64,000 bases of DNA from an uncultured bacterium. GTDB lineage: Bacteria > Bacillota > Clostridia > Lachnospirales > Lachnospiraceae. The stretch covers positions 1 to 64,000 of the forward strand of contig CANCXX010000001.1 of assembly GCA_947381965.1 (NCBI GenBank), written 5' to 3'. Positions 10,065 to 32,681 of the stretch are shown here, one piece after another (the first letter of the stretch is position 1; each line of letters starts with the position of its first letter). A model generated the notes under the pieces. The model saw only the letters and a list, made by a program, of their open reading frames with translations. It made no database searches and was not told where the DNA came from. The position numbers and the translations under genes were made by a program.

Positions 10065-11156
10065 TTAACACATAATATTATGTAAAGCCTTACTAAAAAT
10101 ACTCTGTACCAAATGCAAAAAATATACACCTCTGCCCCATCTGCACCTTCCAACACATGTCATTATCTTTAATCTCCACTCCGCCCCCCTTAATGCTCCC
10201 TTCCAAAAAGCGGTCCGGTATGGTTCTCTTCCAAGAACTTCTTTTACAAATTCTATCTTGTCTCTAACCGTGTTTTCGTTTTTAGAATTAAAAAATGATA
10301 ACCTGCAGCATATGCTGAAAGATTTTATTATTCTGTGATAGTATGCCTGGATAAACTGATATTTGTCCTTTGGCTCCCAGACATCCTTCTTAAAAGATTC
10401 TGTCATATAATTTTGCAGATATTTCCATACTTTTCTGTCCTGCGTCATACGATCCGGGCTAAAGCTGTTAGTAATGGAATCGCTCACATAACAGTAATGA
10501 TATACTTTATCTTTACTGTAAACTACCTTTTGTGCACTTCCAAAAGCTGCTACATTAAAAACCATATCATCCAAAACCTTCAGATTAGGCTGGAAGCATA
10601 TACTTTCTTTCTGTAGAAATGCTCTGCGGTATAACTTATCCCAGGGCGCGGCAAGAGAGATTTTTGTTGCATTACCTGTACTCGGAAAGTACAGGGCTCC
10701 TCTCTGTAAAGCTCTGATTTTCTTTTTATCTTCCCAAATAAATCCCCTGCGAAAGTGCTCCCAGGGGTATTCTCTGCTTCCAACATTTTTCCACGCATCC
10801 ATCAGAATCATGTCCGCATCCGGATTCTCGTTTATTCTTTTTAGGAATATTTGGATTGCAGATTTTGCAAGATAGTCGTCAGGATCTGCAAAATACAGCC
10901 ACTTTCCCTGGGCATGTTCAATTCCAGTATTTCTTGCCGCTGCCACCCCTTCATTTTTTTTATGGATTACTCTTATATATGGATATTTACTGGCATAAAA
11001 ATCTGCTATTTCACCTGATTGATCAGGTGAACCATCATCAATCACTATTACTTCAATGTCTTCCTCCTTCACTTCTGTTGTGATACTGTCAAGACATCTG
11101 GAAAGATATTGTTCTACCTTATAAACGGGAATAATAATTGAAAGTAAGGGAGACAT
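10065..11156 (-). CDS. GT2-family glycosyltransferase
   Basis: A 363-residue inverting GT-A enzyme. The N-terminal MSPLLSIIIPVYKVEQYL opens the GT2 domain, VIVIDDGSPDQSGEIADFYA binds the nucleotide, and YFADPDDYL contains the metal-binding DxD. The C-terminal 130 residues are basic and variable, as in many capsule and teichoic-type transferases. The start at 11156 has AAAGGAA 9 nt upstream; the longer in-frame start would intrude on the preceding gene. It is the last gene of the minus-strand locus, 44 bp after the polytopic GT2, and converges with the 9.0-kb transferase. Sugar specificity unknown. Confidence 0.88.
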   Translation of the reverse strand: MSPLLSIIIPVYKVEQYLSRCLDSITTEVKEEDIEVIVIDDGSPDQSGEIADFYASKYPYIRVIHKKNEGVAAARNTGIEHAQGKWLYFADPDDYLAKSAIQIFLKRINENPDADMILMDAWKNVGSREYPWEHFRRGFIWEDKKKIRALQRGALYFPSTGNATKISLAAPWDKLYRRAFLQKESICFQPNLKVLDDMVFNVAAFGSAQKVVYSKDKVYHYCYVSDSITNSFSPDRMTQDRKVWKYLQNYMTESFKKDVWEPKDKYQFIQAYYHRIIKSFSICCRLSFFNSKNENTVRDKIEFVKEVLGREPYRTAFWKGALRGAEWRLKIMTCVGRCRWGRGVYFLHLVQSIFSKALHNIMC

Positions 11157-11200
11157 TGCCGCTGTTCCTTTCTGTTTTTGTAGGGCCGGACACAAAAACT

Positions 11201-12262
11201 TTAACACATATTAAAGGTTTTTTGCCTTTTTTTCCTTTCTCCTGAAATTTTATCATTTTCCTGACCCATACAGCTTTTCCATTGAATCCTTTGTTCTTCC
11301 TCTTCATTCTGCTTCTGTATGAGAAATTCATATTCCATTCTTCTGATATGATACTGTGTGTCCGAGAGTATCCGTCGGTTTGCCGCCATCAGATCTGACA
11401 CAAGACCAATCATAAAGGTCAAAAATCCAACAATAACCAAGGTACATGCCAATATCAGGGATTGTACATGCCCATATCCTTCTCCTATCATAATTAAATA
11501 TAAAAATCGCAGTCCAATCATCATTCCGCATAATAAAGGAATGCAAGACAAATAAGTAAAACATTTAAGAGGCTGGTACATCATATAGGCTCTTAAAATT
11601 ATCACCACCGATTTCTTCACATAAGACCAGATTCCCCGAAACAGCCTTGATGGACGCAAATAGGAATTGGTATGAATTGGTACACTTGTAATTGCAATTT
11701 TATCCCTTCCTGCCTGTACGATTGTTTCCAGTGTATATGTATAATCGTTAATCACATTTATGTGCATTGCCGCTTCCCGTGTCATGGCGCGAAAACCGCT
11801 TGGAGCATCAGGAATATCTGTATTTGATGCCTTTCGCACCGCCCAGCTTCCAAAATGCTGCAGCTTTTTCTTCATGTATGAAAAATGCTCTGTTTCATCT
11901 ATGGGTCTTGCACCAATGACCATATCGGCTTCCCCATCCAAAATTGGCTGGATAAGACGCTGGATATCCTCCGCACAATATTGATTGTCCGCGTCAGTAT
12001 TTACTATAATGTCTGCACCATTTCTAAGACATCCATCCAGCCCCGCCATAAATCCTCTTGCCAGTCCTTTGTTTTGATTAAAGTTTACAATATAATGAAC
12101 TCCCCATCTCTCCGCAACCTTCACAGTAGCATCCTTACTGCCATCGTTAACAATCAGATATTCAATTTCATCTATTCCCTCCAGCTTATCAGGCAGGTCA
12201 TTTAATGCTACTTCCAAAGTATCCGCTTCATTGTAGCAGGGAATTTGGATAATCAGCTTCAT
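11201..12262 (-). CDS. Membrane-associated GT2 glycosyltransferase (DPM/GtrB-like)
   Basis: A 353-residue GT2 enzyme of the dolichyl/undecaprenyl-phosphate sugar synthase type. Motifs: QIPCYNEADTLEVAL at the N-terminus, EYLIVNDGSKD, NTDADNQY (DxD) and APSGFRAMTREAA. Two hydrophobic helices near residues 225-305 (YLSCIPLLCGMMIGLRFLYL and LACTLVIVGFLTFMIGLV) anchor it in the membrane, as in GtrB. It probably makes an undecaprenyl-phosphate-linked sugar for the GT-C protein at 42.3-44.0 kb. Start ambiguous: AGAGGA suits ATG 12262 better than ATG 12268. It has its own promoter and operator just upstream, unlike its neighbours. Confidence 0.88.
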   Translation of the reverse strand: MKLIIQIPCYNEADTLEVALNDLPDKLEGIDEIEYLIVNDGSKDATVKVAERWGVHYIVNFNQNKGLARGFMAGLDGCLRNGADIIVNTDADNQYCAEDIQRLIQPILDGEADMVIGARPIDETEHFSYMKKKLQHFGSWAVRKASNTDIPDAPSGFRAMTREAAMHINVINDYTYTLETIVQAGRDKIAITSVPIHTNSYLRPSRLFRGIWSYVKKSVVIILRAYMMYQPLKCFTYLSCIPLLCGMMIGLRFLYLIMIGEGYGHVQSLILACTLVIVGFLTFMIGLVSDLMAANRRILSDTQYHIRRMEYEFLIQKQNEEEEQRIQWKSCMGQENDKISGERKKRQKTFNMC

Positions 12263-12304
12263 GGACATTGTTCCTCTTCTGAATCTTATATTAACAACCA
12301 TTTG

Positions 12305-12389: not shown

Positions 12390-14255
12390 TCATAATCTTA
12401 TTATTTTGCCTATCTCTCTTTTACATTCCCTTATTGTCTGCCCAAGACCATATAATTTTAAACACCGGATCGTTTTATAAACAGGGGAATTACTTTTCTT
12501 TTCAAACATCCTGTCCTGTGTTGGTTTTTTCTTTTTTTCATCTGACAGCATTTTATATAATATATATTCATAAAAAGGTGACTTCCGGGCATATTTCCAA
12601 AACACATCACTGAAATCACAATCAGGATAATGCCATGGCTTTTCAGGGCCGGCAAAGTGAATAAGCTTTGGATGTTTTCTAGCTTCCATATACATCCTGT
12701 ACTGCCATTGGGGAGCTAAACGGAATATCTTGTCAATTCGGATGTTCCCATAATCAAAAACCACATTCCATGACATATCCAGATATTTGACTTTACCTTC
12801 ACACAACTTATTCAGAATATCCTGATCCAAAAGCTGCCAGTCTCTTTCTACGGCCATTTCCAATATTTTCTCCATAGAAAATGTTTCTCTGAACTTAAAA
12901 AGATTCATCAACAACACACCTGCCTGAAAATAATCAAATGGATGACGTAGTCCTATTTCCTTATCCATATACTTCTTCTTTCCCGGCATAAATCCATTAT
13001 ACAGCCCTGCCGTGTCAATATCGTATACTGCTCCAAGCAAATATTCTTCCAGTTTTGTATGATATAATTCAGCTACATCCGCCTCCGCCACCATATCTGC
13101 ATCCAGGTATAAAACTTTATCATACGCAGATAAAAACCAGGGTAAAACCAGCCTGTAATATGTTTCCACACTAAAATGCGCTTTAACAGGCAGCCGATAT
13201 TTTCCCAGCAGATACTCCGGATCAGCCACCCGCAGACTGACATTGTCTAAACCTGCTGTCATGTTTTTTAACTTTTGTTTCTCCAACTCTTTCATATCGT
13301 GAGAAAGAATTATTATGTCATAAAAGTTATCAGAGCGCATGTGCTCCAGAACTGAAGACAATAAAACGCTTCCAAAAGGCACATACTTTTCATTTACCGC
13401 CATCACTATTGGAATATTATTTTGAACATTTGCCGGCAAAATTTTTTTCACTTCTGTATCCTCAAAAAATATTCTTTGCAGTTCACAAGTCCTGTATTTT
13501 TCCTGTCCTTTCAAATATAGAAAATAAATACCAAATAAACGCTCCCCTAAATAACCGCTTACCCGATATCCATCAATACTGTAATTCCTGCAATCTCTTC
13601 TCTTTTCATGTTCTTCCAAAATATCAAACAGCCATGCACAGTACTCTCCAAATAATTCCTGTTTCATAATAAACATATTACAAAAATATCCATAATCAGT
13701 CTCATACATATATTTATACGCATAAGGATAATGGGAAGGATATTTTTCCTTAATTATTTCCATTACAAGGTCAATATCCTCTTTATATTCATATGCTTTA
13801 GCTGTATATTGCTGATAATTATTACGAAATTTTCTGTTTAAGTCCCTTAACTGTACCGGAGAAGTTGCAATCACATCATAGCTGCTAATTAATTTCCGCA
13901 TATGTTCCCCATCATAATTAAATTTTCGCAGCATATTCCCCGATAATCTTTTTTCCTGTATATCCTGAAAATCATTATGGGGAAATTGCTTATCAGAAAA
14001 AGACATATATCTCCGGTAATGGAAAAAACCATAAAATTCCGCCTGCACATTCTTCCATACCCAATACTGGACGGTAAGCTCACAGTACATGGGATTTTTC
14101 TGTGAAATGTTATTTTCACCTGCATCATCGTGAAGCATATTGGGAAAATGTATGCCAGCATCTGCAGCCCCTGCCTGTATTGGGAATAAAAGCTCATGCC
14201 TGGGAATATAACACTGCTTATGGCATGATATAAATATATTGATGTCTTTGTTCAC
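12390..14255 (-). CDS. DUF4422 - GT8 two-domain glycosyltransferase
   Basis: A 621-residue protein with two GT-like halves. Residues 1-250 form a DUF4422 domain (IFISCHKQCYIP near the start, LTVQYWVWKNV, GFFHYRRYMSF), a family found in capsule loci and thought to be glycosyltransferase-related. Residues 275-540 are a GT8 domain: IPIVMAVNEKYVPFGSVLLSS, VLYLDADMV (DxD), FQAGVLLMNL and LIHFAGPEKPW. The GTG start at 14255 is chosen because GGAGGG lies 10 nt upstream; the longer frame begins with TTG. It may add two sugars in succession. It follows the ABC exporter by 39 bp. Confidence 0.85.
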   Translation of the reverse strand: MNKDINIFISCHKQCYIPRHELLFPIQAGAADAGIHFPNMLHDDAGENNISQKNPMYCELTVQYWVWKNVQAEFYGFFHYRRYMSFSDKQFPHNDFQDIQEKRLSGNMLRKFNYDGEHMRKLISSYDVIATSPVQLRDLNRKFRNNYQQYTAKAYEYKEDIDLVMEIIKEKYPSHYPYAYKYMYETDYGYFCNMFIMKQELFGEYCAWLFDILEEHEKRRDCRNYSIDGYRVSGYLGERLFGIYFLYLKGQEKYRTCELQRIFFEDTEVKKILPANVQNNIPIVMAVNEKYVPFGSVLLSSVLEHMRSDNFYDIIILSHDMKELEKQKLKNMTAGLDNVSLRVADPEYLLGKYRLPVKAHFSVETYYRLVLPWFLSAYDKVLYLDADMVAEADVAELYHTKLEEYLLGAVYDIDTAGLYNGFMPGKKKYMDKEIGLRHPFDYFQAGVLLMNLFKFRETFSMEKILEMAVERDWQLLDQDILNKLCEGKVKYLDMSWNVVFDYGNIRIDKIFRLAPQWQYRMYMEARKHPKLIHFAGPEKPWHYPDCDFSDVFWKYARKSPFYEYILYKMLSDEKKKKPTQDRMFEKKSNSPVYKTIRCLKLYGLGQTIRECKREIGKIIRL

Positions 14256-14294
14256 AGTGCAAATCCCTCCATTCAACTTTCACCAGATTTATCA

Positions 14295-15032
14295 TCATGC
14301 CATAAATTTTATATAATCAGCTATGACTTTTTCTGGTTTGCCAATCTCTTTTACTTCTCCATTATGTATCCATAAAACCTCATGACATAGCTCTCTTAAC
14401 GTTTTCATATCATGGGATACAATAATTACTGTTCTGTCTTTATCCGTAATCAGTTCCTTCATTTTCGCCAGACTTTTCTTCCGGAAACGTTCATCCCCTA
14501 CACTTAACACCTCATCTACCAGCATAATATCTGTTTCCAGCATTGCAGTAATGGCAAAAGCAAGTTTTGAGTGCATGCCGCTTGAATAGGTGCGGACTGG
14601 CCTGTCTATAAATTCTCCAATCTCTGCAAATTCAATAATTTCCTGCATTTTATTCTCAATTTCATTTTCAGAAAATCCAAGCAACATTCCGCTTAAAATG
14701 ATATTTTCCCTGCCAGTTAGCGCATCCTTAAATCCAACTCCCAGAGCCATCAGCGAAACCGTATGTCCCTTTAAATCAATCGTTCCTTCATTTGGCGAAA
14801 ATACTCCAGCAATCGAACGGAGCAGAGTGGATTTCCCACTGCCATTTCTTCCGATAATGCCAAGAATTCCTCCCTTTTCTACAGAAAAAGAAACATTCTT
14901 TACAGCTTCAAACATTATATTTCTTTCTTTTTTCTTGAAAAAACTCTTTCTTATGGAAATATTATTTAAAATTTGATAGTAAATAGATACATTTCTTACT
15001 TCTATTGCATTTTCTACCTTTTCCTTGTCCAT
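14295..15032 (-). CDS. wzt: Polysaccharide ABC exporter, ATP-binding subunit (Wzt/TagH type)
   Basis: A 245-residue ATPase. Walker A GIIGRNGSGKST near residue 57-68, the YSSGMHSKLAFAITAM signature and IMLVDEVLSVGDERF (Walker B) are those of O-antigen and teichoic-acid exporters. It stops right after the nucleotide-binding domain, so it lacks the C-terminal carbohydrate-binding domain that recognises a modified chain end in some Wzt proteins. Start and stop overlap with the permease (TAATG), implying translational coupling. It should power export of the finished lipid-linked glycan. Confidence 0.92.
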   Translation of the reverse strand: MDKEKVENAIEVRNVSIYYQILNNISIRKSFFKKKERNIMFEAVKNVSFSVEKGGILGIIGRNGSGKSTLLRSIAGVFSPNEGTIDLKGHTVSLMALGVGFKDALTGRENIILSGMLLGFSENEIENKMQEIIEFAEIGEFIDRPVRTYSSGMHSKLAFAITAMLETDIMLVDEVLSVGDERFRKKSLAKMKELITDKDRTVIIVSHDMKTLRELCHEVLWIHNGEVKEIGKPEKVIADYIKFMA

Positions 15033-16126
15033 TAAATCACCTTCACATATGAATTCTCATTGTGGTATATTGTAAATATACCAAGTGCACTTAACACTAA
15101 AGAGATAAGCGCCCATATTCCAAGCATCCGCCAGTCAGGAGTTTCTCCATACAAAACTGCATTTCGCATGGATGCAATTAAAAAAGAAACCGGATTAAAC
15201 TTTTCAAGTAGTTCTCCAAAAGGGTCTGGAACTTTTTTACTAATTGAATAAAAAATGCCAGACAGATACATCAACATATTGGTAGATATTCCAACAATAT
15301 ATGATAAGTCAGATACATAAACCCCATAGTGCATCAATATGGTTCCCACACCAAAAGTAAAAATAAATAAAACAAACACTATCGGGAAAAAGCAAAGAAT
15401 ATTTCTTGTTATTGGAACTTTGAAGAAAAAAAGCATTACAGCCGCAACCCCAAATGATATCATCATTTTAAAACCATTCACAAACATTCGCGCCAACAGC
15501 AAAATATATTTTGGAAGGTATACTTTTGTAACAATTCCTTTATTCCCCCTGACAATGTCAACACTACCATTTATCCCTCTTGAAAAGAAACTAAACATTA
15601 TCAGCCCAAAAAAAATAAAGACAGGAAAATATTTTTCAGCCGCTCTCATGATTGTACCAAATACAAAAGTGTAAATTAACACCATACAAAATGGCTCTAT
15701 CAGCCACCAAAGCCAGTCTAAAAAAGAATTTGCAACTTCTGCGCGCAAGTCTGCCTTCGCCGATCTTATTGCATAATAAAAATATTTTTTTATATCTTTA
15801 AAAAAACGATGTACATATTTTTGTACACCTTTAATAGTAATCTGTTCCTCTGTCAAAAAACACACCAAAAATGGAATAATACATGCAAAAACACAACTCA
15901 TCCCACAGTATTTGATTTTGTAGGACATTGTCATATTGCCAAAATCTATCCTTTTAACGTCTCTCAAATAGGATACAACATATGTACACCCATTAATCAG
16001 AAGAACATATAATATACCCAAAAACAATTTTCTTTTTCCACTTATATCTCCATGTTTTAAATAAATATGAATTCCCCACGCCAAAGCTGCTGGCACCAAA
16101 ATCATTGCAATATTTATCATTACCAT
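15032..16126 (-). CDS. wzm: Polysaccharide ABC exporter, permease (Wzm/TagG type)
   Basis: A 364-residue membrane protein. The C-terminal 260 residues are a typical ABC-2 permease with about six helices: KADLRAEVANSFLDWLWWLIEPF at its start, VRGNKGIVTKVYLPKYIL in the middle and LEKFNPVSFLIASMR near the end. The first 100 residues are unusual, with three extra predicted helices (around 4-22, 33-51 and 72-92). AGG precedes the ATG at 16126. It overlaps wzt and lies 19 bp after cysQ, which ties the sulfate genes to glycan export. Confidence 0.9.
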   Translation of the reverse strand: MVMINIAMILVPAALAWGIHIYLKHGDISGKRKLFLGILYVLLINGCTYVVSYLRDVKRIDFGNMTMSYKIKYCGMSCVFACIIPFLVCFLTEEQITIKGVQKYVHRFFKDIKKYFYYAIRSAKADLRAEVANSFLDWLWWLIEPFCMVLIYTFVFGTIMRAAEKYFPVFIFFGLIMFSFFSRGINGSVDIVRGNKGIVTKVYLPKYILLLARMFVNGFKMMISFGVAAVMLFFFKVPITRNILCFFPIVFVLFIFTFGVGTILMHYGVYVSDLSYIVGISTNMLMYLSGIFYSISKKVPDPFGELLEKFNPVSFLIASMRNAVLYGETPDWRMLGIWALISLVLSALGIFTIYHNENSYVKVI

Positions 16127-16145
16127 AACAACCTGCCTTTTATCC

Positions 16146-16934
16146 TTATTCTAATGTTAAAAAATTTGCCTTGTGATTAAGAATGTAAAAACCTTTTCTG
16201 TTAATACTATCTTTTCTATTATAATACATTGGGGTATTGTCCATCTGGTAAAATACTGCCCCTGCCTCTTCAGTAATACACTGCATAGCTGCCGTATCCC
16301 ATTCCATAGTGGGATTATATCTGTAGTAAACGTCTGCTACCCCGCTTGCAATCATACATCCCTTTAAGGAACTTCCCACCTTAACAAAATTTTTTATTTT
16401 ATACTTATCAATCAATTTCTTTATTTCCTCACATTCATGGGAAGCGCTGATTACCATCTTCAGGGAGGAAATGTCTCTGTTTTCAGAAACTCTAAGCCTT
16501 CTTTCTGCTCCATCTGCACTTCTCACATATGCTCCATAATTCTTTTGCGCATAATATAAATCTCCGGTCACAGGCACATATATCACCCCCATCACCGGAC
16601 AATGCTTATAGGATAATGCAATATTTACCGTGAACTGATCATTACGTTTGATAAACTCTTTGGTGCCATCCAGTGGATCAACAATAAAGCAATAGTCATT
16701 CTCAAGCCGGCACGGATTGTCCTTCTCTTCTTCTGACAGAACTGAATGATTCGGAAACTCCTTTTTTAATCCCATTACAATTATTTGATTTGCTTCCTTA
16801 TCTGCCACGGTCAAAGGCATATCCCCATCTTTATACTCCACCTGCATATCAGAGGCAGTATTATAAATCTCCATAATTGCTTTTCCGGCTTTAAGTGCAT
16901 ATTTTTTTGCTGCTGTTAATTCCCTTGTATACAT
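16146..16934 (-). CDS. cysQ: 3'(2'),5'-bisphosphate nucleotidase (PAP phosphatase)
   Basis: A 262-residue magnesium-dependent phosphatase of the inositol monophosphatase family. Metal-site motifs are LSEEEKD (about residue 70), IVDPLDGTKEF (about 87-97) and EWDTAAMQCITEEAG near the C-terminus. CysQ hydrolyses PAP, the inhibitory by-product of every PAPS-dependent sulfotransfer or PAPS reduction. Placed between cysA and wzm, and with no PAPS reductase in the window, it most likely clears PAP made by the sulfotransferases at 23-26 kb. A general inositol-phosphate phosphatase is the main alternative; context favours CysQ. Confidence 0.88.
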   Translation of the reverse strand: MYTRELTAAKKYALKAGKAIMEIYNTASDMQVEYKDGDMPLTVADKEANQIIVMGLKKEFPNHSVLSEEEKDNPCRLENDYCFIVDPLDGTKEFIKRNDQFTVNIALSYKHCPVMGVIYVPVTGDLYYAQKNYGAYVRSADGAERRLRVSENRDISSLKMVISASHECEEIKKLIDKYKIKNFVKVGSSLKGCMIASGVADVYYRYNPTMEWDTAAMQCITEEAGAVFYQMDNTPMYYNRKDSINRKGFYILNHKANFLTLE

Positions 16935-16946
16935 TTTTCATTTTCC

Positions 16947-17663
16947 TCATTTTATATTATAGTCAATAAAACTTCTTACAAAATCCGTCCGGGGATTCTG
17001 ACAGACTTCCTCCGGCGTACCAATCTGTTCTATTTTTCCCTGATTTGTAATAATGATCCTGTCAGCTACTTCCATAGCTTCTTCCTGATCATGTGTCACA
17101 AAAATACTTGTGATCCCGACTTGTTTAATCATCTCCCGAAGCCATGCACGGAGTTCACGGCGCACTTTTGCATCAATTGCCGCAAAGGGTTCATCCAATA
17201 AAAGTAGCTGTGGATTTGGCGCAAGCGCCCGTGCAAATGCTACCCGCTGACGCTGTCCGCCAGATAACTGATGGGGAAATCTCTTTCCTAAGTCCGCCAT
17301 AGAAACCAGTTCCAATAGTTCCGATACACGCGCCTTTATCTCTGTTTTACTTTTTTTCTGCACTTCCAGCCCAAAGGCAATATTATCAGCTACTGTCATA
17401 TACCGGAACAAAGCGTAGTTTTGAAAAACAAACCCTATCCCCCTCTTACTGCCTGGTATCTCATTTACGATTCTGCCATTTATAATTATCTCCCCGGAAT
17501 CAGGCATATCCAGTCCCGCAATCATTCGGAGAATTGTGGTTTTTCCACTTCCACTGGGTCCAAGGAGCGCCGCTAAATGTCCCTTTTCTACCTGAAAATT
17601 CACATCATCCGAGGCATGAAATCCATCAAATGTTTTATAAATATTTCTCATTTCCACATACAT
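16947..17663 (-). CDS. cysA: Sulfate ABC importer, ATP-binding subunit
   Basis: A 238-residue ABC ATPase with GPSGSGKTTIL (Walker A, about 35-45), LSGGQRQRVAFARAL (signature) and LLLLDEPFAAID (Walker B), plus IFVTHDQEEAMEVAD (switch His), all as in CysA and PotA types. It lacks the roughly 100-residue C-terminal TOBE regulatory region of canonical CysA (about 350 residues). AAGGA precedes ATG 17663. It forms a compact cysT-cysW-cysA-cysQ run with 12-23 bp gaps. It energises sulfate or thiosulfate uptake with the neighbouring permeases. Confidence 0.9.
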   Translation of the reverse strand: MYVEMRNIYKTFDGFHASDDVNFQVEKGHLAALLGPSGSGKTTILRMIAGLDMPDSGEIIINGRIVNEIPGSKRGIGFVFQNYALFRYMTVADNIAFGLEVQKKSKTEIKARVSELLELVSMADLGKRFPHQLSGGQRQRVAFARALAPNPQLLLLDEPFAAIDAKVRRELRAWLREMIKQVGITSIFVTHDQEEAMEVADRIIITNQGKIEQIGTPEEVCQNPRTDFVRSFIDYNIK

Positions 17664-17675
17664 GGCAATCCTTAC

Positions 17676-18563
17676 TCACTTTCTTTTCCATTCCATAATA
17701 TTTCTTGCAATCAATATTAATATGGCAAGTATAACCAGTATAGACGATACTGCAAAAGCCTCTGTGGTATTAAACTCATTGTATAGAATTTCCACATGAA
17801 GGGGAAGTGTGTTAGTTTTCCCTCTCAAATGCCCTGAAATGACGGACACCGCTCCAAATTCTCCCATGGCCCTTGCCGTACACAAGATAACTCCATAAAA
17901 TAATGCCCATTTAATATGCGGAAAGGTAATCTTTCTGAAAATTGTAATACCTTTTGCCCCAAACAAAGCCGCCGCTTCTTCCTCCTGCTTTCCCTGTGCA
18001 TTCATTACCGGAAATAATTCCCGAAACACAAAAGGAAGTGTAACAAATGTAGTTGCCAGAATAACTCCGGGCACTGCAAAAACAATTTTAATATTATGCT
18101 GGTCTAAAAAATCTCCCATCCATCCAATATTTCCAAAGGTTAATATGAAAATCAATCCGGCAATAACAGGAGAAATTGAAAATGGGATATCTATTAATGC
18201 TGCCAGTATCTGACGACCCCTAAAATAAAATTTTGATAACAGAAACGAAGCAAATAATCCAAATATGGTGTTAACTGCCACTGAAATAACTGTAGCCAAT
18301 AACGTTAATTGTAATGCTTTAATCGTGTATTCATCCATCACTGCTTCCGTATAAGCTTTCCATCCATCCTTCAATGCGTTTGCCACAATTACCGCTAGCG
18401 GCATAATCAGCATTACAAATAAAAATAATATGCTTATTCCTATCAAAATATATTTCACAAAAAAATTAGAACTATCTCTTGGTGGTTCAATTACCTTTTG
18501 CAGGGAGTTTATCCCATCTCCCACCATATCCTTTTCATAAGATCTCAGGTTGTCTTTCTGCAT
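17676..18563 (-). CDS. cysW: Sulfate ABC importer, permease CysW
   Basis: A 295-residue inner-membrane permease with about six helices. The cytoplasmic EAA loop is visible as EEEAAALFGAKGITIFRKITFPHIKWAL, and ARAMGEFGAVSVISGHLRGKT is a strong CysW signature. The N-terminus is hydrophilic for 30 residues. ATG 18563 is preferred because GGAG lies 7 nt upstream; ATG 18569 is too close to it. It should pair with CysT to form the sulfate channel. Confidence 0.92.
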   Translation of the reverse strand: MQKDNLRSYEKDMVGDGINSLQKVIEPPRDSSNFFVKYILIGISILFLFVMLIMPLAVIVANALKDGWKAYTEAVMDEYTIKALQLTLLATVISVAVNTIFGLFASFLLSKFYFRGRQILAALIDIPFSISPVIAGLIFILTFGNIGWMGDFLDQHNIKIVFAVPGVILATTFVTLPFVFRELFPVMNAQGKQEEEAAALFGAKGITIFRKITFPHIKWALFYGVILCTARAMGEFGAVSVISGHLRGKTNTLPLHVEILYNEFNTTEAFAVSSILVILAILILIARNIMEWKRK

Positions 18564-18586
18564 ATCCATTCTCCATTAGTATCAGG

Positions 18587-19438
18587 TTATTCTTTTACAA
18601 ATTTCTGCATATAAATTTGAAGAGAATTAATTACAAACATCAGCACAAAAGACAATATGAGCAAAACCAGCGCTATGGCTGTGGCATCTGCATATTTATA
18701 TTGTTCAAGCTTTGACATTATCAGCACAGGAGCAATTTGTGTTTTGTATGGAATATTCCCGGCAATAAATACCACACTCCCATATTCTCCAATCCCTCTT
18801 GCAAACGCCAAACCAAATCCTGCTAAAAGCGCCGGAAATACTTCCGGAAGAACCACACGAAAAAAAATGCAGACTTTTCCTGCTCCAAGCATTTCGGCCG
18901 CCTCTTCATACTGCCTGTCCAACTTTTCAAGCACTGGCTGTACCGCTCTTACAACAAAAGGAATTCCCACAAATATCATGGCTATCACAATGCCTACACG
19001 CGTGTATGCAATTTTAATTCCTGCTTTATTAAAAAGGAAGCCTATCCATCCACGGTCTGAATACAGGAAGGTTAGGGATATACCTGCCACCGCTGTCGGA
19101 AGCGCAAAGGGCAATTCTACCATTCCATCCATAAGCCATTTCCCCGGAAATTCATACCTGACTAATACCCATGCCAGTATCATACCAAACACAGCATTAA
19201 TAACGGCCGCTATAAAGGCACTGGATAAACTCACCATATAACCGGAAACAATCTGCCTGGAGGTGATAACAGCAAGGAATTCCTGTATGCTTAACTTACT
19301 TACATTCATAAACAGGGATGCCAAAGGAATTAAAACCAGCATTCCCAGCATTGTAAGGGTCACTCCCAGGGATATTCCAAAACCTGGTATCACCTTAACA
19401 GCCCGCTTATTTACTACTTTAACAATCTGTTGTTCCAT
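18587..19438 (-). CDS. cysT: Sulfate ABC importer, permease CysT
   Basis: A 283-residue permease, first of the CysT/CysW pair. Features: a hydrophobic N-terminal helix (FGISLGVTLTMLGMLVLIP), WVLVRYEFPGKWLMDGMVELP, the EAA loop (EEAAEMLGAGKVCIFFRVVLPE) and ARGIGEYGSVVFIAGNIP, characteristic of CysT. ATG 19438 is used although a longer open frame exists upstream, because the extra residues are not family-like and would overlap the intergenic hairpin. AGAGGA lies 12 nt before the start. Separated from the binding-protein gene by 67 bp containing a stable hairpin. Confidence 0.9.
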   Translation of the reverse strand: MEQQIVKVVNKRAVKVIPGFGISLGVTLTMLGMLVLIPLASLFMNVSKLSIQEFLAVITSRQIVSGYMVSLSSAFIAAVINAVFGMILAWVLVRYEFPGKWLMDGMVELPFALPTAVAGISLTFLYSDRGWIGFLFNKAGIKIAYTRVGIVIAMIFVGIPFVVRAVQPVLEKLDRQYEEAAEMLGAGKVCIFFRVVLPEVFPALLAGFGLAFARGIGEYGSVVFIAGNIPYKTQIAPVLIMSKLEQYKYADATAIALVLLILSFVLMFVINSLQIYMQKFVKE

Positions 19439-19473
19439 TCTGCGAATATTCCTCTCATTTATATACCCCCGCA

Positions 19474-19496
19474 TATCGCAGGCATCGCCTGCGATA
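19474..19496 (-). promoter_or_regulatory. Intergenic hairpin between sbp and cysT
   Basis: Perfect 10-bp stem TATCGCAGGC / GCCTGCGATA with a 3-nt loop, 10 bp after the binding-protein stop codon. No T-run follows on the minus strand. Such hairpins often protect the upstream message and allow more binding protein than permease to be made; that role is inferred. Confidence 0.6.
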
Positions 19497-19505
19497 CTGC
19501 ATCTT

Positions 19506-20534
19506 TTACTCTCCATATATCTGGTCAAAAACCGCACCATCATCAAAATAATCCTTATATGCTTTCTGCCATCCTCCAAAATCATCAATCGTCACCAGAT
19601 TCATCTGTAAATCAAACTGACTGGAAAATTCATTTAGAATGTTCTGATTTGAGGGCCGGTAAAAATGTTCTCCCGCCAGACGCTGGGCTTTGTCGCTGTA
19701 CAAATATTCCAGATACGCCTTTGCAATTTCTTCTGTTCCATGTTTTTTTGCATTTTGGTCCACCACCGCCACTGACGGCTGCGCCAAAATACTAATGCTT
19801 GGCGTTACAATCTCAAACTGCTCCGGGTATTCTTCCATTGCCAAATATGCTTCATTCTCCCAGGCAATTAAAACATCCCCCTGCTTGTTTTCAACAAATG
19901 TATTGGTGGCTCCTCTTGCACCTGAATCCAGCACAAGTACATTGTGATACAGTTTCTTCATAAACTCTTTTGTTGCATTTTCATCATTTCCATTTTGGTT
20001 CTGTTGGTATGCCCATACTGCCAGAAAGTTCCAACATGCTCCGCCGGAAGTTTTGGGATTTGGTGTAATTACTTCCACCCCATCCTTTATTAAATCGTCC
20101 CAATCTGTTATATTTTTTTCATTACCCTTCCGCACAAGAAATACAATCGTTGATGTGTAAGGTGAACTACTTTCATCCAGTTCCTCCATCCATCCGCTTT
20201 CAATCATACCTGCATCCTCAATTGCCATCACATCACGGGCAAGGGCAAGGGTTACCACATCTGCATCATTCCCTTCAATTACGGAACGGGCCTGTGAACC
20301 TGAACCACCATGAGACTGCGTTATTGTTACCTCTTCCCCACTTTTTTCTTTCCAATATTCACTGAATATTTTGTTATATTCCACATAAAACTCCCGCGTA
20401 GGATCATAAGATACATTTAGCAGCTCTGCAGGGGACTCACCTTCGCCCTCAGAAGCATGATTTCCACATCCCACAAATACCCCTGCCGCCACTATGCACA
20501 ACAACAGCAAAAATAATACTTTTCTTTTTTTCAA
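19506..20534 (-). CDS. sbp: Sulfate-binding lipoprotein of the ABC importer
   Basis: A 342-residue solute-binding protein. A lipoprotein signal (basic MKKRK, hydrophobic LFLLLLCIVAAGV, lipobox FVGC) anchors it outside the membrane at Cys-23. DPTREFYVEYNKIF, QSHGGSGSQARSVIEGNDADVV, PNPKTSGGACWNFLA and LDSGARGATNTFVENKQGDVL are the classic sulfate/thiosulfate-binding protein motifs. The start is TTG at 20534 with GGAG 10 nt upstream. It lies 41 bp after cysNC, joining sulfate activation and uptake in one unit. Thiosulfate binding cannot be excluded. Confidence 0.93.
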   Translation of the reverse strand: MKKRKVLFLLLLCIVAAGVFVGCGNHASEGEGESPAELLNVSYDPTREFYVEYNKIFSEYWKEKSGEEVTITQSHGGSGSQARSVIEGNDADVVTLALARDVMAIEDAGMIESGWMEELDESSSPYTSTIVFLVRKGNEKNITDWDDLIKDGVEVITPNPKTSGGACWNFLAVWAYQQNQNGNDENATKEFMKKLYHNVLVLDSGARGATNTFVENKQGDVLIAWENEAYLAMEEYPEQFEIVTPSISILAQPSVAVVDQNAKKHGTEEIAKAYLEYLYSDKAQRLAGEHFYRPSNQNILNEFSSQFDLQMNLVTIDDFGGWQKAYKDYFDDGAVFDQIYGE

Positions 20535-20575
20535 ATTAGTTCATCTCCATTTCCTGCCTGCATCCAAACAAAGCG

Positions 20576-22402
20576 CTATAAATATTCATTAAGTTTTTTC
20601 ACTATCATCGAAACAGCATCTTCCAGAGAACATTTACTGGTGTCTATTGTTATATCCGGATTTTCAGGCTTTTCATAGGGACTGGATATTCCTGTAAAAT
20701 TAGGTATTTCTCCCTCCCGTGCCTTTTTATATAATCCTTTGACATCCCGTTTTTCACATTCCTCCAAAGGTGTGCTTACATATATTTCAATAAAGTTCTT
20801 TTCTCCGATAATGTCTCTGGCGCTTTGTCTGTCGCTTCGGTATGGTGATATAAAGGCAGTCAGCACAATCAGCCCTGCCTCATTCATCAGTCTTGATACT
20901 TCCGCTATCCGTCGGATATTTTCTATTCTGTCTCTCTCTTCAAATCCTAAATCTTTATTAAGTCCCATGCGGATATTGTCTCCATCCAGCAGCATCGTAT
21001 GTCTGCCGCCAGTACACAATACCTTTTCCACCTCATTTGCCAATGCAGATTTACCTGAACCTGAAAGTCCTGTAAACCACACTGTCAGAGGATTTTGTCC
21101 CAGACTGTTCGACCGCAGTTCACGAGATATATCACTCTTTTGCCATACCAGATTTTCTGATCGGCGCAGAGAATGATTAATAACGCCGCAAGCTGAAGTC
21201 ATATTGGTAACTCTATCAGTCAGGATGAAACTTCCCACTGACTTATGTTTGTCAAACTGAGCAAAAACAATTACATCAGACATTGCAATATCACAAACAG
21301 CTATTTCATTTTTATATATCTGTTTTGCCAAAGCATCTGTTCCCATATTAATGTCTATCTTTTTCTTAATATCCATGACAGTTGCAGGAATCAGTCTGGT
21401 TCCCACCTTTATCATGTAATTTTTCCCACGAACCAGTTCCGCATCATCCATCCACAATAATGTGGCTGTAAACATATTCGTTACCTTTAATTTTGTACCA
21501 TGGCTTAGCACACATCCTCTGGATATATCAACTTCCCGGTCCAGTGAAACAGTAACCGGCTGTCCTTTTACAGCTGTCTGTACTTCCTTATCTGCCACAA
21601 GCAAAGATTTTATTTCCGCCTCTTCTCCGCTTGGAAGTACAGTTACCTTTTCACCTGCACAAATCTGACCGCAGGCAATTTCCCCCTGAAAACCACGGAA
21701 TGTATGGTTCGGTCTGCATACCCTTTGTATGGGCATCACAAAACCTTCTTCTTCTGTCCCGTCATCCGTATCAACAGTTTCCAAAAATGCTAACAATGTT
21801 TTTCCTTTATACCATGGCATATGGCCTGAGCCTTTGGTTACATTGTCCCCTTCCGTTGCAGACACCGGAATTGTAACAATATTAGTTAAATCAAGTTCTA
21901 CCGCAAGCTTTTTAATCTCTTTTGTCAGGTTTTCATATTTTTGTCTGTCATAATGCACTAAATCCATTTTATTAATGGCAAATACAAAATGCCTGATTCC
22001 CATCAAAGCGCAAATCCTGGCATGGCGTCTGGTCTGGATAAGTATCCCTTTCGTTGCATCTACTAAAATTACAGCCAGCTCAGCAAAAGACGCTCCCACT
22101 GCCATATTTCTTGTATATTCCTCATGTCCTGGTGTATCAGCTACTATAAAGCTTCTATGCTCGGTAGTAAAATAACGGTAAGCTACGTCTATTGTAATTC
22201 CCTGTTCCCGCTCTGCCATCAGCCCGTCTAAAAGCAAAGAATAATCAATTTTCCCTTCCCTGCTCCCAACTTTACTATCAAGTTCCAATGCCTGCTCCTG
22301 ATCTGCATATAAAAGTTTCGCATCATAAAGCATATGACCAATCAATGTTGATTTGCCATCATCCACACTTCCACAGGTAATAAACTTTAATAATCCATTC
22401 AT
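20576..22402 (-). CDS. cysN: Bifunctional sulfate adenylyltransferase GTPase subunit / APS kinase
   Basis: A 608-residue CysN-CysC fusion. Residues 1-420 are an elongation-factor-like GTPase (GSVDDGKSTLIG, ADTPGHEEYTRNMA, NKMD) that drives CysD; residues 435-608 are APS kinase (WFTGLSGSGKSALANEVE, DGDNIRMGLNKDLGF). With CysD it converts sulfate and ATP to APS, then to PAPS. The start at 22402 is 1 bp after the cysD stop with AAGGA 10 nt upstream; an earlier ATG at 22459 would overlap cysD. With no PAPS reductase in sight, PAPS is probably the end product here, used for sulfation. Confidence 0.93.
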   Translation of the reverse strand: MNGLLKFITCGSVDDGKSTLIGHMLYDAKLLYADQEQALELDSKVGSREGKIDYSLLLDGLMAEREQGITIDVAYRYFTTEHRSFIVADTPGHEEYTRNMAVGASFAELAVILVDATKGILIQTRRHARICALMGIRHFVFAINKMDLVHYDRQKYENLTKEIKKLAVELDLTNIVTIPVSATEGDNVTKGSGHMPWYKGKTLLAFLETVDTDDGTEEEGFVMPIQRVCRPNHTFRGFQGEIACGQICAGEKVTVLPSGEEAEIKSLLVADKEVQTAVKGQPVTVSLDREVDISRGCVLSHGTKLKVTNMFTATLLWMDDAELVRGKNYMIKVGTRLIPATVMDIKKKIDINMGTDALAKQIYKNEIAVCDIAMSDVIVFAQFDKHKSVGSFILTDRVTNMTSACGVINHSLRRSENLVWQKSDISRELRSNSLGQNPLTVWFTGLSGSGKSALANEVEKVLCTGGRHTMLLDGDNIRMGLNKDLGFEERDRIENIRRIAEVSRLMNEAGLIVLTAFISPYRSDRQSARDIIGEKNFIEIYVSTPLEECEKRDVKGLYKKAREGEIPNFTGISSPYEKPENPDITIDTSKCSLEDAVSMIVKKLNEYL

Positions 22403-22403
22403 A

Positions 22404-23303
22404 TTAAAAATATCCTTCTCTCTTTCGTCTTTCCATACTTCCTGCTGCTTCATGGTCAATTACACGGCTTGTCCTCTCTGAATTAACAGCGCTTAACGTT
22501 TCTTCAACTATTTTCTCCAATGAATCAGCCACAGACTCTACTCCGCCCGTTAATGGATAACAACCAAGAGTCCTGAATCGTACACTTTTATATTCTATTT
22601 TTTCATCCGGGAACAGTTTCATTCTGTCATCATCTACCATAATGATATTGCCGTCTCTGTAAACAACGGGCCGTACTTTCGCAAAATACAATGGAACTAT
22701 CTCAATTTTTTCACGTGCAATATACTGCCAGATATCCTTTTCCGTCCAGTTCGAAATTGGAAACACTCTTATACTCTCTCCTTTATGTATCTGAGTATTA
22801 TATAAATTCCACATTTCCGGTCGCTGGTTTTTGGGATCCCATGCCTGTTCGCTGTTGCGGAATGAAAATATCCTTTCTTTCGCACGGGATTTTTCTTCAT
22901 CCCTGCGCCCGCCCCCAAAAGCTGCCGTAAATCCATATTTGGATAGAGCCTGTTTCAATGCCTGTGTTTTCATAATATCTGTATAAGCCGCGCCATGGTC
23001 AAAAGGATTAATTCCCTGTCTTACACCTTCTTCATTGGTATAGACCAGCATTTCTATTCCCTTTTCTAAAGCTATTCTGTCACGAAATTCTATCATTTCC
23101 CGAAACTTCCATGTTGTGTCAATGTGCATAAAAGGGAAAGGTGGCTTTTCAGGATAAAACGCCTTTAATGCAAGATGAAGCATTACTGAACTGTCTTTGC
23201 CAATTGAATAGAGCATAACAGGCTTTTCACATTCCGCTGCCACTTCCCTAATAATGTATATTGCTTCCGCTTCAAGCTTGTCTAAATGTGAGAGTTCACT
23301 CAT
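22404..23303 (-). CDS. cysD: Sulfate adenylyltransferase subunit 2
   Basis: A 299-residue ATP sulfurylase catalytic subunit of the PP-loop superfamily. The PP-loop is [18 protein letters not shown] (about 30-47); [31 protein letters not shown] and [15 protein letters not shown] are CysD landmarks. It adenylylates sulfate to APS using GTP hydrolysis by CysN. ATG 23303 has GAGGAA upstream. It is 18 bp after the first sulfotransferase, so PAPS synthesis and use are encoded side by side. Confidence 0.94.
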
Positions 23304-23321
23304 AAAAATTCCTCGTTTCTA

Positions 23322-24617
23322 TCAGTTTCGTATAAAAAATCTTCTTATCATTCTAAGTGGCGCTGTAATTCTCCAACAGTAACCATTTTTGATGTTGTTA
23401 ATCTCCTGTTGTTTTTCCAGTAGTTGTAATGAAAGATTTTCCTCTTTTGTCTTTATTTCTTCTATTGCTCCAGCTAACTTTGTTATCTCATCCTGAAGCT
23501 GTTGTTGGCTTAATTGCAACTCTTCATCTCTTTTATTATTTTCCTGATTGGTTCTTTCATTATTCCGCTTTATTTCTTCTGTTTCTTTTTGCAAGGAAAT
23601 AATTTCTTTATTTTTTATCAGTATTACTGATGTAAAAAACCTGATTGTCTGCTTAAGTAAATCATGTGTTGGAACAGATGCACCTGCTAAATTTTCATTA
23701 TCCTTTTTATAAAACAATATTCCATTTTCTCTATTTAAATAATCTACTGCAATTTTTCTGTTTATATCTTCATAATTTTTCATAAATTCCTGACGCTGAG
23801 AAAAACTAAGTAAACTTTTAAAATGAGCACACTCCTTTTCACTACCCTCTTCTACTCCGTCTTCCATCAAAACATCATAAAAACAATCATTCATATTCTT
23901 TTGAGTAGCAATACTTGATAAGTTCATATAACGCTTCATTTCTAATGCAGCATTGCTCATTGAAGGATTATAATTTCTTTCAGATAGAATAAACTCATCG
24001 TTTAAAGACAAACCTATTAATTCCAGAAAATCTTCTATAATATTTCCATTTTTAAATTGACCTTTCTCATAAGGCCTGACAAGTATGTTTTTCCTGCCAA
24101 TTACATCTGCCATTTCTTCCAAAACTGAATAATAATTCAAGCTTTTCTTTACATTTTCCATTTCCAAATTATCAGTACCACAGATATCTACAAAAGACCC
24201 TCTAGTTAAAATTAATCTGACATATTCTCTATACTGAGATTCGAAATAATCAACCTGTTTTCTCAAATATATGATAACCTTAACTTCAATATCATCCGCT
24301 ATCATTTTTATATTACTTATAAATGATTTTTTATCCACAACCTCCAACCAAATATTTTCTGTTGATAATAAAATATCATTATGATCTTGAAATAATTTAC
24401 TGATCTCTTCTCTTTTTTGCCAATCTTCCAAATTACTTCTCTCTATCCAACCAAAATTTCCATCTGTGGAATCTTTCCCTCCCCAAGCTAAATGTTTAGA
24501 CCAAATGGGATAAAATAATCCTTTTTTTTCTAAAATATTTCTATTTAGTAAGAAAAAATGTTGTAATGATGATGTCCCAGTTTTTGGAGTACCAATATGT
24601 ATATATAATTTTTTCAT
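23322..24617 (-). CDS. PAPS-dependent sulfotransferase with coiled-coil and WRITAPLR tail
   Basis: A 431-residue protein. The N-terminus IGTPKTGTSSLQHFF (residues 8-22) is the 5'-phosphosulfate-binding loop of sulfotransferases, with Lys-12 as the likely catalytic residue. VIIYLRKQVDYFESQYREY (about 114-132) fits the 3'-phosphate-binding strand and helix with its Arg and Ser. Residues 335-410 are a Glu/Gln-rich coiled coil, and the last 20 residues contain GYCWRITAPLRMIRRFF, a basic, aromatic tail shared with two neighbours. It probably transfers sulfate from PAPS to a sugar of the local glycan. It lies 18 bp before cysD. The exact acceptor is unknown. Confidence 0.8.
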   Translation of the reverse strand: MKKLYIHIGTPKTGTSSLQHFFLLNRNILEKKGLFYPIWSKHLAWGGKDSTDGNFGWIERSNLEDWQKREEISKLFQDHNDILLSTENIWLEVVDKKSFISNIKMIADDIEVKVIIYLRKQVDYFESQYREYVRLILTRGSFVDICGTDNLEMENVKKSLNYYSVLEEMADVIGRKNILVRPYEKGQFKNGNIIEDFLELIGLSLNDEFILSERNYNPSMSNAALEMKRYMNLSSIATQKNMNDCFYDVLMEDGVEEGSEKECAHFKSLLSFSQRQEFMKNYEDINRKIAVDYLNRENGILFYKKDNENLAGASVPTHDLLKQTIRFFTSVILIKNKEIISLQKETEEIKRNNERTNQENNKRDEELQLSQQQLQDEITKLAGAIEEIKTKEENLSLQLLEKQQEINNIKNGYCWRITAPLRMIRRFFIRN

Positions 24618-24645
24618 ATTAATTCCTTTTTACTTCATCTACTCT

Positions 24646-25853
24646 TCAGAGATTCCCCCTGACACTACACTTTTTTACTTTTCTAAATAACCTTTTAATT
24701 TTTCTTAATGGTGCTGTAAGCCTCCATGAATATCCACTTTTCATCGCATCAATCTCTTGTTGTTTATCCAAAATTTGCTCTGAAAGTTTTTCCAATTTCT
24801 TATCCATTTCTAATAATGAACCTGCCATAACAATGATTGAGTTTTCAAGCAACTCACTTTTATAGCCAGCACTACATTTATCTAATTTTGGACTGAAAAA
24901 TAATTCTTCTTTAGTATTAAAAAACTCTAATGCTATTTTATTATTCATTTCTTGATACATTTCCCATATTTTCAACTCTTGTTCATAGCTTAAATATTTA
25001 TCAATTTTTTTCACTGAGCCAATAGATTTTCTTTTTCCCCCAACAAACATTCCCTCCATAATAGATAAAAGAAAAACCTCATCCACTTTTTTCTCTCCAT
25101 ATTTTTCTGCCCAATAATTTACTAATCTCTTTATTTCCAGCATATCAATATTAAGTGACGGATTAATCAATTTATCATGTGAAATTTCAAAGTTATTACT
25201 TATGTCAATTCCTATACATTCTAAAAAATCTTCACAAATATCCTTATTTAAATTAATAATTTGATCATAATTTCTAATAATGATATTTTTTTTACCTATT
25301 ATTTTTTCTATTTGTTTAATATTTGTGTAATAATCTAAAGACATTTTTAAGTGCCATATTTGGTCTTTGCTTATTTCTGGACAATTAATCAGGTTTACTC
25401 CATTAACAATATAGTTATATGCTTCTCCCACCTTTAATGTCATATTAGAACATTTAACTAACTGTCGAAAAGTTGATTCAAAATAATCACATTGATTCCG
25501 TAAATAAACTATAACTATAATCTGAAGATCTGGGTCAAAATTTTTTAAATGTTGAAAAAAGTTTGTTTATCTTTTATTTCAAACCAAATCCTTTCTGATG
25601 ATATAAGCGTTTTTTCATTATTACTTATTAAGCTATAAATTTTCTTTGCTTTTTCTTCTAAAGATGTACATGCTGATAAATTATCTCCTAAATTTCCATC
25701 TGTGAATTCAAAAGATTCACTTGGTATACCTCCCATAGAAATGGGGTAAATTATACCTTTATTTTTTAATATATCCCTATTCTTATAACAGAACGACTGT
25801 ATAGCTGTTGTTCCAGTCTTCGAAGTACCAATATGAAAATACAATGTTTTCAT
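24646..25853 (-). pseudogene. Second sulfotransferase, interrupted by one -1 frameshift
   Basis: Two frames together encode a 402-residue homologue of the adjacent sulfotransferase: 25853 to about 25557 gives IGTSKTGTTAIQSFCYKN (PAPS loop) and ends at a stop at 25545, and the frame resumes through VIVYLRNQCDYFES to 24646. Joining them by slipping back one base at the six-T run (25555-25560) restores a collinear alignment without gaps to the intact neighbour. The run reads T TTT TTC in the first frame, a slippery heptamer, so programmed frameshifting, a recent mutation or a sequencing error are all possible. The tail again contains GYSWRLTAPLRKIKRLF. Confidence 0.75.
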
Positions 25854-26180: not shown

Positions 26181-27359
26181 CTATACAAGTGACCGTCTTT
26201 GTAATTCTTCATTTTCTTTCACTTGAACTTCTAATTTCTTTTGCATCTCACACTTTTCACTAAACAGATAATTAATTTGTTCTTTCAGTTCAGTTATTAC
26301 ATATCCCTCTTCATATTTAATATTCATCAATTCTTCATATTTCCTTTTTATCTCCAATGTTGTAAATTGAATTGCTTCCTGTTTTACATCAAATTCCCAA
26401 TTAAATACTCGCGAATCCTGACATATGGGCTCTTTAATAACATCTAAATATTCATTATTATAAGGATGACAAGGGTTAAGCATATTTTTAAATAATAACT
26501 TATCTTCTTGCGTTCCAAACCACTTAAATATAGGCCTTAATACAATATCATCTGCATCATATTCTATACACTTTTGTATAAATTGTGGAATTTGTCTAAA
26601 ATTACTATCTTGTATAACCATGATAATTCGAATTTTTCCCACTGCACCTTCATGCTTAAGTTTCGTAATATAGGCCATACTTTCCTCAAATTTATATAAA
26701 TCATCTCTACCCGCAAGATACCTATATGTTTCTCTATCAAAGCTATTTGGTGTTACGGATATTATATTACGGTTATTTGCAAGATGCTTTATTTTGTTCC
26801 AGTTTTCTTTCAAATAAGACACCATTCGTCTCAATAAACATATAGAATTCAGGGTCCTGTGGGTGAAATCTAGATAACATATCCAAAATTTCATGGGAAA
26901 CAAATAAATCTCCCATTCCATTTGTTGCAATATATTTTACCTTTCCAATATATGGCTCTATATTTTTTGTTATGATTTTTAGATCTTTTTTATATTCTTT
27001 ACTAGCATCAAAAAATTCATGCCTGCGTGACGGACACGCATGGTTACATCTTTCATCATAAGTCAAACTTATACGTAAAGGAATTGAAGGCAAATCTTCA
27101 TTTAGTTGTATTAACTCTTCTTCTTTAATTTCCAAAACGGGGCTTTTATTTATACAGTCTGGACAATATTGTTCATTACATCCAGCCAACTTCCCTTGAT
27201 AAATGCCTTTCTGATATAGTTAGCTTTATCGCTCTGCCATATTTCTTCTAAAGTATTCTTTTTCAAATTTCCGATTACTATGCCATTCCATGTACAAAAT
27301 TTAATATCCCCTCCAACAAACACATATGCAAATTCAAAGCACCTCCTGCAAGACCTCAT
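26181..27359 (-). pseudogene. Decayed radical SAM/SPASM paralogue (two frameshifts, lost cysteine, missing tail)
   Basis: Three overlapping frames (27359-27150, 27189-26773, 26930-26181) align end to end with the intact gene at 27423-28688. One base is lost near 27185 and one gained near 26820, so the final frame is restored. The radical SAM motif reads CNHACPSR where the intact copy has CNHACPSC, so the third iron-sulfur ligand is gone. The C-terminus stops before the WKLTAPLR tail. ATG 27359 retains a good GGAG site. Substitutions are spread throughout, indicating an old tandem duplication now decaying rather than a sequencing error. Confidence 0.85.
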
Positions 27360-27422
27360 TTTTTTCTCCTGTCATACATAATTAAAAAATAATATAATTT
27401 TTTAAATTCATATTTTTTCATC

Positions 27423-28688: not shown

Positions 28689-28713
28689 TTTTTCTCCTTT
28701 ATACATTCAATAT

Positions 28714-32678: not shown

Positions 32679-32681
32679 AAT

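Follow-up and report, generated by a model that had tools for sequence, protein, structure and literature searches.

What becomes of sulfate that is imported and activated by genes lying inside a glycan export locus? The question is raised by a 64,000-nucleotide stretch of DNA from an uncultured bacterium of the Lachnospiraceae (assembly GCA_947381965.1, contig CANCXX010000001.1, positions 1 to 64,000; hereafter the window), in which genes for a sulfate importer (Sbp-CysTWA), the sulfate-activating enzymes CysD and CysNC, a sulfotransferase designated ST2 and the nucleotidase CysQ run together with genes for a putative Wzm-Wzt polysaccharide exporter. We think it likely that these genes form a self-supplied glycan-sulfation operon, and the bacterium probably bears a sulfated sugar coat on its surface, made with sulfate that is not used for growth. 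If true, part of a large Clostridia family devotes sulfate to decorating molecules and not to growth. This would matter for the mimicry of host mucin or glycosaminoglycans and for what happens to sulfate in the gut. Related loci exist in isolate genomes.

Sulfate import and activation genes share one operon with exporter genes

Coordinates are window positions, and all operon genes lie on the minus strand. From 25853 to 10065 the order is a broken sulfotransferase gene (ST1), ST2, cysD, cysNC, sbp, cysT, cysW, cysA, cysQ, wzm, wzt, a DUF4422/family 8 glycosyltransferase (GT8) gene and two family 2 glycosyltransferase (GT2) genes (Table 1). The identities given to the seven cys genes in the initial annotation were upheld, the product of every gene exceeding one or more curated NCBIfam cut-offs: CysD (486 bits against 397, TIGR02039), CysNC (842 against 715, NF004035), Sbp (447 against 288, NF008022, a subfamily-level model), CysT (375 against 246, TIGR02139), CysW (352 against 329, TIGR02140), CysA (350.9 against 342.75, TIGR00968, also subfamily-level) and CysQ (241.7 against the equivalog cut-off of 228.8, TIGR01331). 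All four importer subunits thus pass a family cut-off; CysT, CysW, CysA and CysQ fell below narrower NCBIfam models built on enterobacterial proteins. CysD is a member of the 3'-phosphoadenosine 5'-phosphosulfate (PAPS) reductase superfamily, yet every best model was CysD.

The compact one-strand layout described earlier also holds: from ST1 to Wzt, genes are separated by 1–67 bp or overlap by one base, given start positions of 22402 for CysNC and 19438 for CysT, both preceded by a ribosome-binding site (by eye). With 19 bp between CysQ and Wzm and a one-base overlap of Wzm and Wzt, the cys genes do continue straight into the exporter genes. Wzt and Wzm exceeded the Pfam cut-offs for ABC_tran and ABC2_membrane. 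Against NCBIfam exporter models, Wzt scored 234 bits for teichoic acid (cut-off 538), 202 for TagH (320) and 180 for galactan (400), and Wzm scored 26 bits against a curated model with a cut-off of 380. Together with wzm-wzt, the operon carries three glycosyltransferase genes, so that PAPS-synthesis and sulfotransferase genes lie inside a polysaccharide locus, the arrangement that marks a dedicated polysaccharide-sulfation cluster. An Rfam search for a link to sulfur starvation found no riboswitch or T-box in the window, and promoter and terminator scans gave chance-level results. The G+C content is 27–29% in the sulfotransferase genes and 37–43% in the cys genes, which suggests separate origins for the two groups.

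The intact sulfotransferase and its C-terminal tail

Two sulfotransferase genes had been reported, but only ST2 is intact; in ST1 the piece with the PAPS loop and the remainder are in different frames. ST2 matched no Pfam or NCBIfam family and did not reach the gathering cut-off of PF00685 (Sulfotransfer_1), a family with weak matches (E≤0.01) in 7 of the 49 members of the ST2 alignment. Across these 49 sequences G9, K12, T13 and R119 are invariant, and T15 and S127 are kept in at least 90%. We take R119 and S127, an Arg and a Ser eight residues apart, to be the 3'-phosphate site. ST2 thus combines the 5'-phosphosulfate loop, the Arg/Ser 3'-phosphate site and the fold by which the PAPS-dependent sulfotransferase superfamily is recognized. 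In structure alignments it came closest in fold to heparan sulfate enzymes, ahead of cytosolic and tyrosylprotein sulfotransferases, although identity to the heparan sulfate N- and 3-O-sulfotransferases (PDB 1nst, 8cd0, 1vkj and others) is only 10–13%, these are mostly human enzymes, and ST2 has an extra C-terminal helix of about 114 residues. A PDB search with just the ST2 sequence brought up nothing beyond a chance match to a coiled coil, while its profile found the sulfotransferase 3rnl (E 0.022). The name sulfotransferase is kept on the strength of the fold and the weak PF00685 matches among relatives, although no family model recognizes ST2 itself.

A search of named genomes with ST2 only was empty; a search with the alignment found relatives, of which the best 79 loci were listed. 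ST2-like genes also occur in Candidatus Thiomargarita nelsonii (L192), far from the Clostridia, and five tandem genes of the family lie on a single 14.5-kb contig (L031/L128).

ST1, ST2 and a nearby radical S-adenosylmethionine (SAM) protein all have a coiled coil and, behind it, the terminal motif W-[RK]-[IL]-T-A-P-L-R, with which none of the 119 other open reading frames (ORFs) in the sulfotransferase family ends. When the last 45 residues of ST2 were searched against 299 genomes of the same bacterial family, 26 places in 22 genomes were found. Outside the window's three, the motif was present in 22 of 23 matches, and in 18 of the 23 a GT2 domain lay in the same ORF. The background for comparison, 17 glycan-type ORFs among 868 ORFs of at least 350 aa in the collected loci, is only a rough one, being drawn from another sample, the window among it; the threshold for tail matches was E 0.01 per genome. 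The W-R-x-T-A-P-L-R tail is otherwise mostly found on family 2 glycosyltransferases. It did not stand out as amphipathic (497 of 2000 shuffles scored equally high). Fold and tail together support a carbohydrate acceptor for ST2.

In the mechanism that we propose, Sbp-CysTWA would import sulfate, CysD-CysNC would convert it to PAPS, ST2 would transfer the sulfuryl group to a sugar of a polymer or lipid-linked precursor made by the neighboring glycosyltransferases, CysQ would clear the by-product 3'-phosphoadenosine 5'-phosphate (PAP), and Wzm-Wzt would export the chain, which would then carry the sulfate. The C-terminal helix and tail of ST2 may anchor the sulfotransferase at the assembly machinery, and such docking would place sulfation in the cytoplasm, ahead of export.

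Reduction or sulfotransfer in the source genome

The assembly comprises 4.3 Mb in 92 contigs (96.66% complete, 7.31% contamination). As first reported, the window holds no PAPS or sulfite reductase: PF01507 matched only at CysD, and PF01077 matched nowhere in the window. The sulfation locus thus lacks the APS (adenosine 5'-phosphosulfate) or PAPS reductase that would mark an assimilatory operon. Genome-wide, PF01507 matched in three places, namely CysD, a DUF3440 protein and an unassigned 380-aa protein on contig C36, and neither non-CysD protein matched the CysH family model at E≤1e-15. AprA (at E≤1e-60) and Sat were not found in the assembly, and apart from the window's copies no Sbp or CysN scored over cut-off. 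PAPS is the evident product of CysD-CysNC, as had been proposed, the usual sulfate-reducing enzymes not being found in the assembly.

PAPS-type and reductive loci in the Lachnospiraceae

Among the 299 genomes, 55 carried CysN over the cut-off, in 59 places. All 59 neighborhoods were compared, the window included, several of them shortened by contig ends. Loci with APS kinase (fused or elsewhere in the stretch) and no AprA were called PAPS-type, those with AprA and no APS kinase reductive. The result was 34 PAPS-type loci, 24 reductive and one with neither, counting L125–L127, whose CysN is too divergent for the automated cut; APS kinase and AprA never occurred together. The full form of the reductive locus reads Sbp-CysTW-CysA-AprA-AprB-like-CysD-CysN, its AprA scoring 951 bits against a cut-off of 557 and its AprB-like protein falling below its own cut-off. 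In a quick CysN tree, 23 of the 24 reductive loci fell in one clade, together with one PAPS-type locus and the locus with neither enzyme. CysQ was present in 9 of the 34 PAPS-type loci and in none of the 24 reductive ones, and an Rfam search of eight reductive loci gave only one tRNA. The split between APS kinase and AprA offers a simple genomic rule for predicting the fate of activated sulfate.

ST2-like matches were found in 21 of the 299 genomes, 16 in the sulfotransferase domain (one of them, G109, weak) and five in the tail only. All 16 were among the 55 genomes with CysN (p 2e-13, treating genomes as independent). The 34 PAPS-type loci comprised 10 with an ST2-family gene, 5 with another Sulfotransfer_1/3-type gene, 6 with an ASST-type gene and 13 with none recognized, cluster members being named from one representative. 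The ASST-type arylsulfotransferases (L079, L093, L106, L110, L121 and L125; PF05935 tested on L106) presumably share their Pfam family, PF05935, with published bacterial aryl sulfotransferases. Enzymes of the latter kind are described as PAPS-independent (PMC13426309). A ChrA-like permease, under NCBIfam cut-offs, lies in nine CysN loci (including L032, L079, L088, L106 and L119) and in at least 13 named loci, and is a candidate alternative sulfate carrier; as a marker of PAPS-type loci it was dropped, the nine being six PAPS-type and three reductive. In L109 (10212–12221), a phosphoenolpyruvate mutase fused to nucleotidyltransferase domains directly follows CysD-CysNC, placing phosphonate beside sulfate chemistry.

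Repeated linkage of the importer to PAPS synthesis

When locus conservation across the family was compared, the importer, CysD, CysNC and CysQ were found together not only in the window but also in L102, L104 and L105, sulfotransferase genes being present too in L104 and L105, so the operon order is not due to chance. Sbp occurs in 5 of the 34 PAPS-type loci (window, L085, L102, L104 and L105) versus 14 of the 24 reductive ones, and among the best 79 named sulfotransferase loci CysNC was found in 36, CysD in 35 and the importer in 4. In the Sbp tree the window grouped with L197, L105 and L102 (98/95), while L085 and two further PAPS-type pairs took other positions. A test of the tree rejected a single origin for the importers of PAPS-type loci (p-AU 1.8e-12), and the idea of one inherited super-operon was therefore dropped. 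That the importer joined PAPS loci repeatedly and separately gives good grounds to think that, in the loci bearing it, imported sulfate is meant for sulfotransfer. In four loci (window, L102, L105 and L197) CysA is short, stopping at the end of the ATPase domain with 238–249 aa; in reductive operons it is mostly about 353 aa long. In L144 a single 718-aa ORF (495–2651) joins a sulfotransferase and Sbp, which may be a genuine gene fusion or an artefact of assembly, and is followed by a 562-aa frame spanning CysT and CysW (2648–4336).

A congeneric genome, G264, had no ST2 match and no CysN over the cut-off. Both the left and the right flank of the window have homologues there, on two contigs (72–84% DNA identity), and the two 20-kb stretches beside these homologues contained no window gene of 9–46 kb, barring a general resemblance of ABC (ATP-binding cassette) ATPases. 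With the flanks present and the intervening genes unmatched, the sulfation locus resembles an accessory region within the genus.

Neighboring genes

Upstream of ST1 lies a frame-split, broken radical SAM copy (26181–27371); the intact one is listed in Table 1. The region 28714–31812 encodes a 1032-aa protein with a GT2 domain at its end and an N-terminal part that is aldolase-like by eye and has no family match. Further on (31902–40097), RfbF, a glucose-1-phosphate cytidylyltransferase (341.5 against a cut-off of 300; a second copy is below cut-off), is accompanied by RfbH (717 against 423), an HMGL-type aldolase and two split transketolase pairs. These genes probably encode a pathway for a CDP-3,6-dideoxyhexose, of which a two-carbon branch may be part.

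Table 1. Features of the operon and the adjacent tailed protein (window positions).
Feature	Position	Strand	Family basis
ST1, N-terminal piece with PAPS-binding loop, out of frame with remainder	25545..25853	-	
ST1, remainder in a different frame, ending in WRLTAPLR	24646..25566	-	
ST2, intact sulfotransferase, 431 aa; heparan-sulfate-sulfotransferase-like fold (1-306), long C-terminal helix, WRITAPLR tail	23322..24617	-	
CysD, ATP sulfurylase small subunit	22404..23303	-	NCBIfam
CysNC, ATP sulfurylase GTPase and APS kinase fusion	20576..22402	-	NCBIfam
Sbp, sulfate-binding protein	19506..20534	-	NCBIfam
CysT, sulfate importer permease	18587..19438	-	NCBIfam
CysW, sulfate importer permease	17676..18569	-	NCBIfam
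CysA, importer ATPase, 238 aa, stops after nucleotide-binding domain	16947..17663	-	NCBIfam
CysQ, 3'(2'),5'-bisphosphate nucleotidase (PAP phosphatase)	16146..16934	-	NCBIfam
Wzm-like permease of polysaccharide ABC exporter, weak family score	15032..16126	-	Pfam
Wzt-like ATPase, 245 aa, too short for C-terminal carbohydrate-binding domain	14295..15032	-	Pfam
DUF4422 and family 8 glycosyltransferase, 18 bp downstream of Wzt	12390..14276	-	
Family 2 glycosyltransferases, two	10065..12301	-	
Radical SAM/SPASM protein, WKLTAPLR tail	27423..28706	-	

Alternative explanations

Several observations weigh against a glycan-sulfation operon with its own sulfate supply. The importer was not seen in 29 of the 34 PAPS-type stretches. 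Glycan genes occur in only 8 of the best 79 named sulfotransferase loci and in none of the 9 other PAPS-type loci with an ST2-family gene, and their enrichment around PAPS-type loci was not significant; frequent neighbors in the listed loci were CysD-CysNC, ABC ATPases, a two-component pair (by eye) and the ChrA-like permease. Because glycan genes are so sparse around the relatives, we argue a glycan role for the window locus and not for the sulfotransferase family; the original proposal of surface-polysaccharide sulfation keeps a carbohydrate acceptor but does not extend to the family at large. The same sparseness would fit a PAPS module for a peptide, lipid or small molecule (compare RaxST and BT_0416) that was inserted in the glycan locus by accident, and a Bacteroides cluster does pair a proposed sulfate importer and PAPS genes with a sterol sulfotransferase (PMC9417993). 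We consider such a non-glycan acceptor unlikely, however, given the position of the ST2 fold closest to the heparan sulfate enzymes, the restriction of the glycosyltransferase-type tail, among sulfotransferases, to the window's two, and the co-linearity of the cys genes with wzm-wzt.

Also to be set against exclusive use in sulfation are genes elsewhere in the assembly: a NirA-like NIR_SIR protein on contig C6 (under NCBIfam cut-offs), an 860-aa fusion of a CoA-disulfide-reductase-like and a sulfite-reductase domain on contig C11 (L028, 7828–10410), the additional PF01507 protein on C36 and a SulP permease on contig C26. The search for reductive genes was thus negative for AprA, Sat and the CysH model but not for sulfite-reductase-like proteins, and because of the SulP permease the claim of a supply dedicated to sulfation is unsupported in its exclusive form. 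No complete reductive route is visible in the assembly, but the organism may reduce sulfite, and sulfate may enter by another way. That the operon supplies cysteine synthesis, with assimilatory reduction by enzymes encoded elsewhere or missing from the assembly, could also draw on the related importers in 14 of the family's 24 reductive loci, but is quite improbable with no AprA, no CysH-model match for either non-CysD PF01507 protein, no locus among 59 shared by APS kinase and AprA, and CysQ and a sulfotransferase in the operon itself. Finally, the frame breaks in ST1 and the radical SAM remnant, which count against a working locus, and the AT-rich stretch could reflect a decaying or poorly assembled region losing its sulfation function; we give this very little credence, as the reading frames of ST2 and of the seven cys genes are all open with conserved motifs kept, and the second radical SAM gene is open too.

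Beyond the glycan-sulfation operon itself, we offer a wider proposal that is tentative and, on balance, doubtful: that activated sulfate in the Lachnospiraceae goes either to AprA reduction or to APS-kinase-dependent sulfotransfer, mutually exclusively, and that here it would serve only a surface glycan, through heparan-sulfate-type sulfotransferases with a docking tail captured from a glycosyltransferase, assembly and sulfation occurring in one complex.

Comparison with known systems

We found no report of such a sulfation locus from Clostridia in the open-licence literature. The systems compared here are as described in the available portions of the cited texts. In Xanthomonas, the ATP sulfurylase and APS kinase of RaxP/RaxQ supply PAPS to the export-linked sulfotransferase RaxST, as we propose for the window, but the proposed acceptor has a leader peptide and raxST lies beside raxA and raxB of type I secretion (PMC4216712). 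Bacteroides BT_0411–BT_0416 likewise clusters a proposed sulfate importer, PAPS synthesis and a sulfotransferase; in this comparison of layouts it differs in its acceptor, cholesterol, and in having no glycan exporter or glycosyltransferases (PMC9417993). Rhizobial nodPQ/nodH shares CysD- and CysNC-type PAPS synthesis with the window, and nodPQ is needed for a sulfated cell-surface polysaccharide (M. loti mutant) and a signal glycan; unlike the window, no importer or CysQ is tied in, and NodPQ and CysDN also feed cysteine synthesis through CysH (PMC6192434). For Pontiella, sulfated exopolymers are described along with a putative sulfotransferase cluster (PMC7356697). The capsule cluster of Vibrio sp. 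KMM 8419 resembles the window in that cysC/cysN/cysD and sulfotransferase genes share one locus with genes for glycosyltransferases and an ABC exporter; it belongs to a Gram-negative bacterium and holds second copies of the PAPS genes, the available text does not mention cysQ or sulfate transport, and its polymer is chemically proven, whereas the window is known from its genes (PMC11641403). The authors of that study regard PAPS and sulfotransferase genes in one cluster as a hallmark of sulfated polysaccharide synthesis (PMC11641403).

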